This document shows positions 40,169-51,772 of a stretch of 64,000 nt of DNA, in pieces. Made by a program: the position numbers and the translations under genes. This stretch comes from Nitrosarchaeum sp. Lineage in GTDB: Archaea > Thermoproteota > Nitrososphaeria > Nitrososphaerales > Nitrosopumilaceae. Under the pieces are notes generated by a model, which did no database searches, had not been told where the DNA came from, and worked only from the letters and a program-made list of their open reading frames with translations. The stretch spans positions 1 to 64,000 of the forward strand of contig JAIOOR010000008.1 in the NCBI GenBank assembly GCA_021414365.1, written 5' to 3'. Positions within the stretch are counted from its first letter, which is position 1. The number at the start of each line of letters is the position of its first letter.

Positions 40169-41230
40169 TTAATTAGCTTCAAATAATTTTTTGATGGATT
40201 CTTCATATGGTGGTTTGGCTACACCTTTTTCGGTAATTATTCCTGAGATTAGCTCAGGAGGAGTCATATCAAATGCCGGATTTATTACATTAATGTCATC
40301 AGGAGCCGTTTTTCTGTCACCAATTCCAGTTACTTCAGTTCCCTTTCTCATCTCAATAATTACATCTTTAGCATCACTTTTCATATCAAATGTTGACAAA
40401 GGTGCTGCCACATAAAATGGAATTCCATGTTGTTTTGCCATGGTTGCTACTTGATAGGTTCCAATTTTATTAAAGACGTGACCAGTTCTTACAATTCTGT
40501 CTGCTCCAACTATTACTTTGTCTACTAATCCATTTGCCATCGAGTATCCCACTGCAGTGTCAGGAATTAGACTGACGTCAAACCCATCATGTTTTAGCTC
40601 AAATGCGGTTAATCTAGAACCTTGTTGTATGGGTCTTGTTTCAGTTGCTATGACTTTCACATTTTTTCCACTTTCCCTTGTTGCTCTAATCACACCAAGA
40701 GCTGTTCCATATGCCACTGTAGCTAATGCACCTGCATTACAATGAGTCATTATAGTATCATTATTATCGAATAAAACAGAACCATGTTTTCCCATGGATT
40801 TGTTTATTTCAATATCTTCTTCTGCCATCTTTTTGGATTCATCGATTACAGATTGTTTGATTTGCTCAATTGTAGTTCCTGAATTTGCAACTTTCATTAT
40901 TTTGTCTAATCCCCACTTTAGATTAACTGCAGTAGGCCTAGTTTCATAAAGAATTTTTCTTGCTTTTTCTAGATCAGAAATAAGTTCATCTTTTGTAGTT
41001 GCCTTGCTTTGTAAAGATGCCAATGCCAGGCCAAAAGCTCCAGATACTCCAATCGCGGGAGCACCTCTAACAATCAGAGTTCTAATGGCATCGGCTACTT
41101 GATTAAAATCATTATATGTTACAAAGACTAGTTGATTTGGTAATTTGGTTTGATCAATCATGATTACTTTGTTATCTTTCCACTCTACAGTTCTAAGAGA
41201 TGAGTGAATATTGGTAGATTGTTCTTCCAT
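40169..41230 (-). CDS. mtnA: Methylthioribose-1-phosphate isomerase
   Basis: 353 residues. RGAPAIGVSGAFGLALA, the catalytic Cys in MTHCNAGALATVAYG, ETRPIQQGSRLTAFEL and GADRIVRTGHVFNKIGT are the family motifs of the eIF2B-like sugar-phosphate isomerases. It takes part in recycling the methylthio group of SAM, or in archaea a related nucleoside pathway. Adenine deaminase at 45.3 kb could handle the adenine released in the same route. It has a clear single start. Confidence 0.9.
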   Translation of the reverse strand: MEEQSTNIHSSLRTVEWKDNKVIMIDQTKLPNQLVFVTYNDFNQVADAIRTLIVRGAPAIGVSGAFGLALASLQSKATTKDELISDLEKARKILYETRPTAVNLKWGLDKIMKVANSGTTIEQIKQSVIDESKKMAEEDIEINKSMGKHGSVLFDNNDTIMTHCNAGALATVAYGTALGVIRATRESGKNVKVIATETRPIQQGSRLTAFELKHDGFDVSLIPDTAVGYSMANGLVDKVIVGADRIVRTGHVFNKIGTYQVATMAKQHGIPFYVAAPLSTFDMKSDAKDVIIEMRKGTEVTGIGDRKTAPDDINVINPAFDMTPPELISGIITEKGVAKPPYEESIKKLFEAN

Positions 41231-47419: not shown

Positions 47420-47613
47420 AGAAAGATCATATTGAAATTCCAAAGCCATCAAGTAAATTCCAGAAAGTTAACTGTAATGAATGTGGAGAGCTACAGGTTG
47501 TGTATTCTCATGCATCACAAGCTGTTGTGTGTAATTCTTGTGGCAACAATATTGCTGAACCAACAGGGTCTAAAGCAAAAATCAATGGAAAAATCTCAGG
47601 CAGTGCTGAGTAA
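47416..47613 (+). CDS. rps27e: Ribosomal protein S27e
   Basis: 65 residues. Zinc ligands are in VNCNECGELQ and VVCNSCGN, the S27e pattern. It is part of the small subunit and follows L44e with a 4-base overlap. Its 3' end overlaps the CobY gene on the other strand by 18 bases. Confidence 0.97.
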   Translation: MKKDHIEIPKPSSKFQKVNCNECGELQVVYSHASQAVVCNSCGNNIAEPTGSKAKINGKISGSAE

Positions 47614-48180
47614 ATCATAATCTTGTTTTGTGTTTAAATTAAAAGCGATTCTTTTATCATCAATGATTATAAATTTTTCAGAAATGTTTTCCAATATGGA
47701 AATATTTTTTGCATTTACTAATGAAATTCCAGTATAGCAACATTGTTGATTTTCAAAATTAAACCAGTAATTTGTAGAGAGGTTTAATGAATCTAGAAAT
47801 TTTTTTGTGACAAGTATTGTGGTCCAAATATTTTCTTGATCATATTGATTTACAATGTTCTTTATAATTTCTGCATCCAAATAGGGTAAATCTGCAGATG
47901 TAATCAAAACAAAATCGTTTAATGATTTAAGAACCAAATTAAGATCTTCAACATAACCTTCACCTGGAGTATTAATTAGATCAATATTGTTTTCTTCTAA
48001 TAATTTTTTTGTTTTTGGTGAATTAGAACTTGTAATTGCAAATATTTTGGAAAAGCATTCAGAATTTTTTAATGCGTCAACTACATGAAGAACAATAGGT
48101 TTTTTATATTTTAAAAGTAGTTTTTCTCCAGCAATATTCATTCTACTTCCTTTGCCTCCTGCCATTACGATGCCAATCAT
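47596..48180 (-). CDS. cobY: CobY-type adenosylcobinamide-phosphate guanylyltransferase
   Basis: 194 residues. The nucleotidyltransferase opening is IGIVMAGGKGSRMNIAGEK, and the metal and nucleotide segment is VLITSADLPYLDAEII. Archaea use CobY in place of bacterial CobU to make adenosylcobinamide-GDP. The position directly after CobS (4-base overlap) and the operon support the assignment over a MobA-type role. It is the last gene of the cobalamin operon. Confidence 0.85.
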   Translation of the reverse strand: MIGIVMAGGKGSRMNIAGEKLLLKYKKPIVLHVVDALKNSECFSKIFAITSSNSPKTKKLLEENNIDLINTPGEGYVEDLNLVLKSLNDFVLITSADLPYLDAEIIKNIVNQYDQENIWTTILVTKKFLDSLNLSTNYWFNFENQQCCYTGISLVNAKNISILENISEKFIIIDDKRIAFNLNTKQDYDLLSTA

Positions 48181-48902
48181 ACTGAAACAAATATTAGAAG
48201 AGAAGTTAGTCGAGTAAGTTCGTTTGTAGCTCCCAATACATCTCCAGTAATACCTCCAAAACTACGAGCAGTTAAGACTACTAGGAATAGTGTTAGTGCA
48301 GTACCTACTCCAAATAAGAGCAATCCGATGAGACCACCTAGAACAATCAATGGAATTAGAGTAATTATTGCTGCCAGTATCAATTTCTTTTTGTTTTTCA
48401 TCATTTCAACAAATGGTGAATTTGAGCCCAAAGATGCGGATTTTCCAACACTTGCCATTAAAACCATCGAGAATTTTGCAAATATCTCACTAAGTAAAAT
48501 TGCTAAAAATAATTGATATCCAGTAGATAATGAGATTGCAATTATCAATCCAACAATATACAAAACTATTGCAGCTATTCCTGCTGTTCCAGTAGAAAGA
48601 TCTTTCATAGCTGCAAGTTTTTTTTCTTTTGTTCCTTTTACCATCAAACCATCGGCAAAATCAGCTAAGCCATCAGTATGATGAATACCAGTTAGTATTG
48701 CAAATGAAGCAACTACTAACAAACTAACGATTAATGGATCTAAAAATAAGGAAAGACCGAATCCTATCGAACCAACAATTAATCCGATTACAATTCCAAC
48801 TATCGGAAAAACATACATGTATTTTGCAATTATTTCAAGATTGGAATTACTAGTTGGAATAATAGTCAAAAATGAAAATACTGAGCCAATTTCTTTAAGC
48901 AT
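48177..48902 (-). CDS. cobS: Adenosylcobinamide-GDP ribazoletransferase
   Basis: 241 residues with about six membrane helices. The motif GIHHTDGLADFADGLMVKGT near residue 80 is the CobS metal and substrate site. It joins the lower ligand nucleoside (alpha-ribazole or a related base) to adenosylcobinamide-GDP, the last assembly step. It overlaps CbiB by 8 bases and CobY by 4 bases. Confidence 0.95.
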   Translation of the reverse strand: MLKEIGSVFSFLTIIPTSNSNLEIIAKYMYVFPIVGIVIGLIVGSIGFGLSLFLDPLIVSLLVVASFAILTGIHHTDGLADFADGLMVKGTKEKKLAAMKDLSTGTAGIAAIVLYIVGLIIAISLSTGYQLFLAILLSEIFAKFSMVLMASVGKSASLGSNSPFVEMMKNKKKLILAAIITLIPLIVLGGLIGLLLFGVGTALTLFLVVLTARSFGGITGDVLGATNELTRLTSLLIFVSV

Positions 48903-49866
48903 GAATCCACCATCCCAAATATGACAAAAATAAAATGATAGGAACTACCATAATACCACAAAACAATATTGAAGTTACTTTCATTATTGAAATAGCTGAT
49001 TTTACATGTTCTTTAGTAAACGAAATATTACCATCACCAAGTGAATAGTGATCAATCTTTTCAAATTTTGCTTCCAAAGCTCCTGCAATAGCTGCCATAG
49101 GATAGCCAGCATTAGGGCTAGTAGTTTTTCTTCCATCACGCATCATTATCTCATAGGATTTTTTCCAATTATGTCCAAGAATCATGGCACTAAGTATCAT
49201 AGTAAATCCTGTTAGTCTAGATGGAATGTAATTCAAAATTTTGTCACAGTTTGCTCCAAACCATCCAACATTTTTGAAAATATCTGTTTTGTATCCAATC
49301 ATAGAATCTGCTGTGTTGATAACTCTGTAAACAAATGCTCCAGGTAATCCAAAAAATGCAAAGAAAAAAAGAGGCCCAATAATACCATCTACAGTATTCT
49401 CACTAATGCTTTCTAATACACCTGAAAATATGTGATTCTTGTCGAGATTTTTTGTATTTCGCTTTACAATCATGGATAAATTATCTCTAGCAGAAGAAAT
49501 ATTGTCTTGCTCTATGGCAGTCACTACAGCAAGGGCATGTTTTTCCATTCCTTTTATTGAGATGGTTGTCTTTAGCAATATACCACCAACAATTACTGAA
49601 ATTATGATGTATAGATTATTCATAGTTATTAATTTAATTCCAATATTCAAAAATATTAGTAGAGATACAACGATTACAGCAGAAATCAAAATAATAAAAA
49701 CACCTCCAAGTTTTTCAAAATTTTCAGATGAATTTTTTGCATATGGAGTTAATTTTGCAATAAGAGATCCAATCCAAGACGTTGGATGAAATTTATTTCT
49801 AGGATCTCCTACTATAAAGTCTAATACCAGTGCAAAAAATACTATCAGTATGGATTCAATTATCAA
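48895..49866 (-). CDS. cbiB: Adenosylcobinamide-phosphate synthase
   Basis: 323 residues, membrane protein. Family motifs are DFIVGDPRNKFHPTSWIGSL at the N-terminus and KTTSPNAGYPMAAIAGAL near residue 247. It attaches aminopropanol or its phosphate to cobyric acid. It overlaps CbiP by 4 bases (ATGA) and CobS by 8 bases. Confidence 0.95.
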   Translation of the reverse strand: MIIESILIVFFALVLDFIVGDPRNKFHPTSWIGSLIAKLTPYAKNSSENFEKLGGVFIILISAVIVVSLLIFLNIGIKLITMNNLYIIISVIVGGILLKTTISIKGMEKHALAVVTAIEQDNISSARDNLSMIVKRNTKNLDKNHIFSGVLESISENTVDGIIGPLFFFAFFGLPGAFVYRVINTADSMIGYKTDIFKNVGWFGANCDKILNYIPSRLTGFTMILSAMILGHNWKKSYEIMMRDGRKTTSPNAGYPMAAIAGALEAKFEKIDHYSLGDGNISFTKEHVKSAISIMKVTSILFCGIMVVPIILFLSYLGWWIHA

Positions 49867-50702
49867 CTTATCATCCTCTCTATTTCTCTAATATTCAAAT
49901 TTGAATTTACTAATCGGCTTAGCTTATCAATCTCATTTTCTATTTTATCTAGATTTTTTTTATTCCATGTGAGATTTTTTGCTTTGCCACTTAACGAATC
50001 TTCTTCAGGTAGATTCAAGTCAATCATTGGTATTATACCCAATACTGAACATTTTGTTATCTCTTTAATTTTTTCAAAACCTGGTTTAAGAATATCTATA
50101 TCACCTCGAAATTTATTAAAAACAAATCCTTTGATTAATTTTTGATGTTTTTTATCTAAAAGAGACATAGTCCCCACAATACTTGCAAACGAACCTCCTC
50201 TATCAATATCTGTAATTAATAATACTGGTGAATTAGATATTTCAGCCATTTTCATATTTGCTATATCAGATTTTTTTAAATTGATTTCAGTTGGGGATCC
50301 AGCGCCTTCTAAGATAATGAGATCATAATTTTTTTGAAGAAATTTAAGGGATTTTGTAGCAACTTGAATTCCCTTAGTTAGGGCAAATTTTTGATAGTAT
50401 TCAGTAGCATGCATTTTTTTAAAGAATTTTCCATTTTGGTATACATTACTATAGTAATTTCCAAGAGGTTTTAGAAGAATTGGATTTAGATCAGGTGTAA
50501 TTTCACATCGTGCTGCTATTGCTTGTATAGCTTGTGCTCTAGATATTTCAAAATCTTTTGTTTTGTAGGCGTAGTTTGACATGTTTTGAGACTTGAAGGG
50601 CGCTACAGAAAATCCCTTATCAGCAAAGATTCTACATAGTGCTACAACCAGTGTTGTTTTACCCGAACCTGAGGATGTACCTTGAATCATTAATGATTTC
50701 AT
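49863..50702 (-). CDS. cbiP: Cobyric acid synthase without glutamine amidotransferase domain
   Basis: 279 residues; the normal enzyme has about 480-500. The N-terminal ATP-dependent synthetase domain is intact: IQGTSSGSGKTTLVVALCRI, APFKSQNMSNYAYKT, ILEGAGSPTEINL and ITDIDRGGSFASIVGT. After LPEEDSLSGKAKNL, where the glutaminase domain should begin, the protein passes straight to a tail like the usual CbiP C-terminus (EIDKLSRLVNSNLNIREIER). The next gene overlaps the stop, so no second domain follows. The enzyme amidates cobyrinic diamide; free ammonia could be its nitrogen source. Confidence 0.85.
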   Translation of the reverse strand: MKSLMIQGTSSGSGKTTLVVALCRIFADKGFSVAPFKSQNMSNYAYKTKDFEISRAQAIQAIAARCEITPDLNPILLKPLGNYYSNVYQNGKFFKKMHATEYYQKFALTKGIQVATKSLKFLQKNYDLIILEGAGSPTEINLKKSDIANMKMAEISNSPVLLITDIDRGGSFASIVGTMSLLDKKHQKLIKGFVFNKFRGDIDILKPGFEKIKEITKCSVLGIIPMIDLNLPEEDSLSGKAKNLTWNKKNLDKIENEIDKLSRLVNSNLNIREIERMIS

Positions 50703-51772
50703 AACATCTCCAAAGCTTTGATTAATTTGTCATTTTCTTTTCTTGTCTTTACAGCAATTCTAATGTAATTATCATTCAATCCACGAATTGTACTGCAATC
50801 ACGAATTAGAATTTTTTTTTCTAGTAATTTTTTCTGAAGTGTTTTTGATTTTATTTTTGTCTTTATTAAAATAAAATTTGTTGATGTGGTATTACATTGA
50901 AAATTATTTAATTTAGAAATACGATTAATTAAATAAAATGATTCTTTTTTAATTATTTTTTTTACTTTGTTTAAATAAGATAAATCAGAAAGAGCAGTAC
51001 TTGCAGCATACTGTGCTAATCCTGAAACATTCCATGGGATTTTGATTTTATTTAAAATAGAAATCATTTGTTTAGAACCAATACCATAACCAATTCGTAA
51101 GCCAGCTAGTGCAAACGATTTTGTCAAAGATCTTAAGACAAATAAATTCGTGCAATTCTTAACTAGTTTAATGATTGATTCATCATAATCTGGGACTAAC
51201 TCAATAAAGCATTCATCAATGAAAACCAAAGTTTTCTTTTTATTTGCTGATGCAATTATTTTCTTCAAAGTTTTTTTAGGTATTAGATTACCTGTAGGAT
51301 TATTTGGATTGCAGATGAAGACACATCCATTATTTGGTAGTTTGGAAATAAAGCCATCAATATCTTTTTCTAAATTCATTGTTTTAAAAAATGAAACTTT
51401 TGCACCACTGAGTTTTGCTGCAGATTCATACTCTCCAAATATTGGAATTGGAATTAAAACAGGAGTTTTAACAGACAAAAATGCTTGACAGAAATTATAG
51501 ATAATTTCTGTTGCACCATTTCCTATTACAATTTGAGAGGAATGTATTTTGGTATAGTGTTGAAGGCTTTTTGTTAGTTGAATTGATTCTGAATCAGGGT
51601 AGATTTGAATTGTTTCTAGATGATTTTTTATGGTTTTACGCACCAATGAAGAAGTACCTGTAGGACTAATGTTTGAGCTAAAATCCAGAATGTCGATATT
51701 TGGATGTGATACAGAGAATGGACCTCCGTGTTTAATCCGCTTATGATTAGAGATATTTGGATTTATCCTCAT
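50699..51772 (-). CDS. Threonine-phosphate decarboxylase-like aminotransferase
   Basis: 357 residues, PLP fold type I. Features: KHGGPFSVSHPNIDILDFSS, NGATEIIYNF, CNPNNPTGN, FIDECFIEL and the PLP Lys in VLRSLTKSFALAGLRIGYGI. It resembles histidinol-phosphate aminotransferases and CobD-type decarboxylases, which make aminopropanol phosphate for cobalamin. First gene of the cobalamin operon with a 4-base overlap to CbiP, so the cobalamin role is favoured. Confidence 0.85.
   Translation of the reverse strand: MRINPNISNHKRIKHGGPFSVSHPNIDILDFSSNISPTGTSSLVRKTIKNHLETIQIYPDSESIQLTKSLQHYTKIHSSQIVIGNGATEIIYNFCQAFLSVKTPVLIPIPIFGEYESAAKLSGAKVSFFKTMNLEKDIDGFISKLPNNGCVFICNPNNPTGNLIPKKTLKKIIASANKKKTLVFIDECFIELVPDYDESIIKLVKNCTNLFVLRSLTKSFALAGLRIGYGIGSKQMISILNKIKIPWNVSGLAQYAASTALSDLSYLNKVKKIIKKESFYLINRISKLNNFQCNTTSTNFILIKTKIKSKTLQKKLLEKKILIRDCSTIRGLNDNYIRIAVKTRKENDKLIKALEML

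Follow-up and report, generated by a model that had tools for sequence, protein, structure and literature searches.

A cobyric acid synthase without its glutaminase domain in ammonia-oxidising archaea

The cobalamin operon and its shortened cbiP gene

The window, a stretch of 64,000 nucleotides from Nitrosarchaeum sp. (contig JAIOOR010000008.1), carries an intact operon with the gene order cobD-cbiP-cbiB-cobS-cobY. Its second gene encodes a cobyric acid synthase (CbiP) of 279 residues from which the glutaminase domain GATase_3, approximately 200 residues, is missing. The genes are:

50699-51772, minus strand: cobD-type L-threonine-O-3-phosphate decarboxylase / HisC-like aminotransferase, first gene of the operon (TIGR01140, 286 bits, slightly below the cut-off of 290.55)
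49863-50702, minus strand: cbiP without glutaminase domain, 279 residues, with synthetase residues 1 to ~237 joined directly to a two-helix tail (~247-279)
48895-49866, minus strand: cbiB, adenosylcobinamide-phosphate synthase (TIGR00380, 278 bits, above the cut-off)
48177-48902, minus strand: cobS, adenosylcobinamide-GDP ribazoletransferase (TIGR00317, 171 bits, above the cut-off)
47596-48180, minus strand: cobY-like adenosylcobinamide-phosphate guanylyltransferase, conserved last gene of the operon (NF045495, 87.5 bits, E 8e-25, below the cut-off)

The first-pass annotation had described cbiP as embedded in an intact operon with 4-base overlaps. This holds for both cbiP junctions (50699-50702 with cobD, 49863-49866 with cbiB) as well as for cobS and cobY, while cbiB and cobS overlap by 8 bases. 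The order cobD-cbiP-cbiB-cobS is common to relatives with full-length and relatives with truncated CbiP.

The cobyric acid synthase model NF001989 (480 positions, cut-off 273 bits) matches the protein with 331 bits over positions 1-260 only, and TIGR00313 gives 298.8 bits, slightly below its cut-off of 309.9. A Pfam search found the CbiA nucleotide-binding domain and no match to GATase_3. Alignment to full-length orthologs reveals a single internal gap, which reaches from the LPEEDSL motif to the C-terminal tail (..KLSRLVNSNLNIREIERMI). The P-loop and the conserved motifs of the synthetase are present, and the catalytic Cys and His of GATase_3 are missing along with their domain. Profile coverage, domain search and alignments are thus in agreement with the original claim that the synthetase half and the C-terminal tail were kept while an amidotransferase domain of about 200 residues was lost. 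Under the NCBI model from which it takes its name, the protein passes as an ordinary cobyric acid synthase; because the GATase_3 domain is absent, it is a variant and not a standard member of CbiP/CobQ.

An AlphaFold2 model of the window protein has a mean pLDDT of 91.8 and a pTM of 0.91. Its two tail helices (248-268 and 271-278) are the counterparts of helices 478-496 and 499-506 in the model of a full-length relative. In the models the synthetase fold is complete after removal of the glutaminase, which would be an insertion ahead of the last helices of this fold. Such an arrangement would explain the retention of the tail. A sequence search of solved structures with CbiP gave no match.

Distribution and order of the domain loss

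The genome of the window (G000) contains archaeal amoA and thus belongs to an ammonia oxidiser. In the family of this genome (f1), in f8 and in the main f2 genus, intact CbiP orthologs have ~273-330 residues. The remaining CbiP-bearing families of the order and class (f6, f7, f13, f14 and f22) have frames of 483-558 residues that cover nearly the whole profile. A working CbiP glutaminase domain was present in none of 31 amo-positive genomes, being absent in 28 and degenerate in three. The length check called for by the first-pass annotation revealed no intact full-length CbiP among the ammonia-oxidising relatives covered. The amo-negative relatives with CbiP (20 of 20) have full-length proteins that keep the nucleophile motif (GICGGY-like), EIH and the HGIF-like His motif. 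Of 398 genomes sampled from the phylum, 112 contain CbiP; about 73 of these proteins come from ammonia-oxidising families and are all truncated, and the other ~39 all extend to profile position 440 or beyond. Within this archaeal class, loss of the CbiP glutaminase coincides with the presence of amoA. One draft genome of f8 (G325, 79% complete) has a truncated CbiP and gave no match for amoA.

Three ammonia oxidisers (G038, G054 and G168; INTERMEDIATES) have a longer CbiP frame whose glutaminase is predicted not to work. For G038 and G054 (family f3) the Cys is kept, HGIF reads YGLF and EIH reads REH or RRD; their GATase_3 scores are ~77 bits, compared to ~160-200 bits in amo-negative relatives. 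For G168, from another genus of f2 than the truncated members, GICGGY reads GIDEGY and the HGIF block is deleted. The Cys and His of the CbiP motifs correspond to the dyad C94/H189 of the homologous GatD, in which it is essential, and the dyad has been reported to be conserved in CobQ (PMC5871853).

A tree of the synthetase domain places all ammonia oxidisers in one clade (100/99), within which the dead-domain sequences cluster with the truncated f2 sequences (97/88). This grouping implies at least two domain deletions after one probable inactivation. Since some deep-branching ammonia oxidisers still have a full-length, catalytically dead domain, activity was probably lost ahead of the deletion.

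A scan of genome contigs yielded 80 named loci. A single clean truncation among them falls outside the ammonia oxidisers: in Oceanobacillus sp. Castelsardo (L157) the CbiP tail is kept and the operon cbiB-cobD-cobU-cbiP-cobS-cobC is intact. Among 161 genomes of this Bacillus-related family, 29 have CbiP. The glutaminase domain is absent from 24 of these, one of which has a broken frame, and the other five carry a full-length protein encoded at the same place in the operon. In the tree the truncated proteins sit with bacterial CbiP, with at least two losses. That the truncated forms of archaea and bacteria share one origin, by transfer, is excluded by the tree and by the AU test (p-AU 1e-12). 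To our knowledge the bacteria of this family are not ammonia oxidisers. The same deletion in this family shows that ammonia oxidation is not required. The proposal made in the first-pass annotation, that an ammonia-oxidising cell can spare the domain, stands therefore in part: within the class the loss tracks amoA, but the domain was also lost in a family that does not oxidise ammonia, and the glutaminase of CbiA is kept.

Some further loci were recorded during this survey. A glutaminase-free cbiP lies in the operon of one bacterial genome, L224 (G774), which has a second cbiP elsewhere, full-length but with a broken frame. The full-length CbiP of Bacillota bacterium isolate ZC4RG07 (L125:2974-4494) has Gly as nucleophile (GIGGGY) and reads ENH in place of EIH, such that this sequence possibly represents a third lineage losing CbiP glutaminase activity. 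Long tblastn matches had hinted at truncated CbiP in Methanobacteriaceae; the frames there are 511-538 residues long with GVCGGF or similar motifs, and this candidate was dropped.

Other glutaminases and changes in the synthetase

A search of G000 for GATase_3 (PF07685) returned CbiA, PdxT and PurQ only, with no dedicated CbiP-type glutaminase, and a search for class-I domains (PF00117) added only TrpG, CarA, PyrG and two orphan proteins. On the outcome of these searches a dedicated stand-alone CbiP-type glutaminase was rejected as a candidate. In the loci examined, archaeal and bacterial, the cbiP operon showed no glutaminase gene, and no dedicated GATase_3 was found in the Oceanobacillus genome G727. 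The separate amidotransferase subunit that the first-pass annotation had proposed to look for was found neither in G000 nor in its relatives. Its second suggestion, that CbiA might show the same loss, did not hold: the glutaminase catalytic motifs of CbiA are intact in ammonia-oxidising archaea. CarA, PyrG, PurQ, TrpG and PdxT also retain their glutaminases. The loss is hence confined to CbiP and is not part of a wider change from glutamine to ammonia.

The two orphan class-I glutaminases of G000 are:

G000:C19:32823-33362 (L098): 180 residues
G000:C1:20469-21158 (L097): 230 residues

Their class-I motifs are intact (GICYGAE..FHPE and GICLGSQ..FHME). Both occur in nearly all ammonia-oxidising genomes tested, and less consistently outside. 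The 230-residue protein is missing in G021 and the 180-residue protein in G027 (a 91%-complete draft), two genomes with truncated CbiP. Neither is linked to the cbiP operon; one gene overlaps that of a TPR protein, and the other lies near genes for glutamate dehydrogenase and 3-hydroxypropionate-CoA ligase.

An additional loss of the GMP synthase glutaminase was ruled out, as the other ammonia oxidisers that were checked have a full-length GuaA. The guaA gene (PF00958) was found in 16 of 17 genomes checked (G000 and relatives including G014, G020, G037 and G021), in several relatives ~7-9 kb from cbiP. The 99.86%-complete assembly of the window gave no match, nor did the corresponding place near window position 41000.

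Full-length CbiP has 61 synthetase sites with at least 97% conservation, and truncated archaeal CbiP retains 94% of them. Among 64 sites with at least 93% conservation in full-length CbiP, five are altered in many truncated archaeal proteins and six in many truncated bacterial ones. Three of them, N44, S45 and T48, are common to both lineages (hypergeometric p 0.004, which is only a guide as the sites were chosen after inspection and relatedness was left uncorrected). N44 is invariant in all 71 full-length CbiP sequences used and in the dead-domain forms. The f2 proteins retain this Asn, while almost every f1 protein has Tyr or Phe at position 44 and almost every truncated bacterial protein Tyr, Phe, His or Arg. 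The loop that carries this position comes after the conserved FKxQNMS motif, and we infer that it contacted the glutaminase or the ammonia path.

Proposed function and comparison with known systems

The truncated CbiP is probably fed by free ammonia rather than by glutamine, and we consider it fairly likely that it is a working cobyric acid synthase freed of glutamine hydrolysis and dependent on free ammonia. In glutamine amidotransferases ammonia is made in one domain and consumed in the other, and many of them accept free ammonia. During the b,d,e,g-amidation of adenosylcobyrinic acid a,c-diamide the synthetase would still phosphorylate each side-chain carboxylate with ATP. Ammonia from the cytosolic pool would enter directly at the former delivery site of the glutaminase, and free ammonia would attack the acyl phosphate. 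Ammonia may have replaced glutamine first, with the domain still being structural, and the domain would have been shed later; the archaeal series of proteins with a dead domain or with none fits this path. The ammonium-rich physiology of ammonia oxidisers plausibly permitted the loss without being the sole permissive setting. Inactivation, deletion, constraint and the lack of a dedicated partner are the steps that the sequences show, while the use of free ammonia and its cellular source are what we infer. As a broader proposal, to which we give an even chance, glutaminase-free and free-ammonia-dependent CbiP would be a class that evolved several times (in ammonia-oxidising archaea by probably one inactivation and at least two domain losses, in the Bacillus-related family by at least two) and is marked by a convergent change of N44 that would adapt the synthetase to ammonia capture from solution.

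That the short gene is an artefact of assembly or gene modelling, through a lost block or a frameshift, has a negligible probability. Nothing beyond isolated broken cbiP frames in two genomes speaks for it, whereas a similar length and the same junction recur in many independent genomes, single-contig ones among them. The two broken frames (G008:C1:1142280-1143114 and G009:C3:41744-42579) belong to otherwise good genomes of the same genus and are probably sequencing errors. The pairwise dN/dS of cbiP within the genus is 0.06-0.14, and the gene is under strong purifying selection. Recurrence of the length in intact orthologs, the dN/dS values and the kept operon order show that neither a frameshift nor chance is at work, and recurrence and dN/dS rule out frameshift, pseudogene or assembly error as cause of the short CbiP. 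It is also improbable, though less so, that the truncated protein is decaying or in another role, with cobyric acid made by another route or corrinoids being salvaged. The same two broken frames would fit such a decay, as would G727, whose truncated CbiP lies in a salvage-type operon; because CbiA gave no match in this genome, its CbiP may differ in role and act in salvage. Against this explanation, dN/dS is ~0.1, CbiP is retained across the ammonia-oxidising families, the two broken frames stand alone and may stem from sequencing errors, and these archaea keep CbiA. Ammonia-oxidising archaea have moreover been reported to encode the cobalamin pathway and are implicated as major B12 sources (PMC4303638).

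The most serious competitor, which we still regard as unlikely, is that a separate glutaminase serves CbiP in trans in the manner of MurT/GatD, be it the glutaminase domain within CbiA or one of the two class-I orphans. The motifs kept by CbiA and by both orphans, the presence of the latter in nearly all ammonia-oxidising genomes tested, and the precedent of a synthetase and a CobQ-type glutaminase as two proteins are compatible with it. However, the operons examined in archaea and bacteria contain no glutaminase gene, each orphan is missing in one genome with truncated CbiP, and the orphans are ordinary class-I amidotransferases rather than of the CbiP-type GATase_3. Otherwise invariant synthetase positions are furthermore altered in both lineages, while a conserved docking partner would predict otherwise. 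Free ammonia as the nitrogen source faces constraints of its own. MurT/GatD with the glutaminase Cys changed to Gly retains ammonia-dependent amidation at pH 8.5, and MurT without GatD is inactive (PMC3266927). With ammonia used only at this pH and not without GatD, the glutaminase may well have a part in the structure. In the cells that have the truncated CbiP, CbiA and further glutamine-dependent enzymes retain their glutaminases, which indicates that cytosolic ammonia is no general substitute for glutamine.

The truncated CbiP is a real, conserved architectural variant of a known enzyme, for which the ammonia mechanism is plausible and the ammonia-oxidiser explanation incomplete. We found no published description of CbiP glutaminase loss in the literature searched. 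If the CbiP of ammonia-oxidising archaea uses free ammonia, cellular ammonium would bear directly on their B12 output through one step, which takes four ammonia molecules per corrinoid. With the dead intermediates and the parallel bacterial loss, the evolution from glutamine to ammonia amidation becomes testable in one small, well-folded protein.

Among known systems, dethiobiotin synthetase (PDB 1dbs) is the solved structure that the model matches best (TM 0.60, normalised by query length) and likewise an ATP-dependent synthetase without glutaminase, but shares only 18% identity with the window CbiP. Its substrate is CO2 and not ammonia. The lipid II amidotransferase MurT/GatD resembles the truncated CbiP in having a synthetase without an attached CobQ-type glutaminase and in taking ammonia in vitro at pH 8.5. 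GatD, however, is a separate co-transcribed gene product required even for ammonia use, and here no GatD-like gene was found. CbiA belongs to the same pathway, is present in the same cells and combines a related synthetase with GATase_3, but retains its glutaminase in ammonia-oxidising archaea. With CbiP/CobQ itself (NF001989, TIGR00313) the window protein shares the synthetase domain, the P-loop, the motifs, the C-terminal helices and the operon with cobD, cbiB and cobS, and it differs by the absence of GATase_3 and its length of 279 versus ~490-530 residues.
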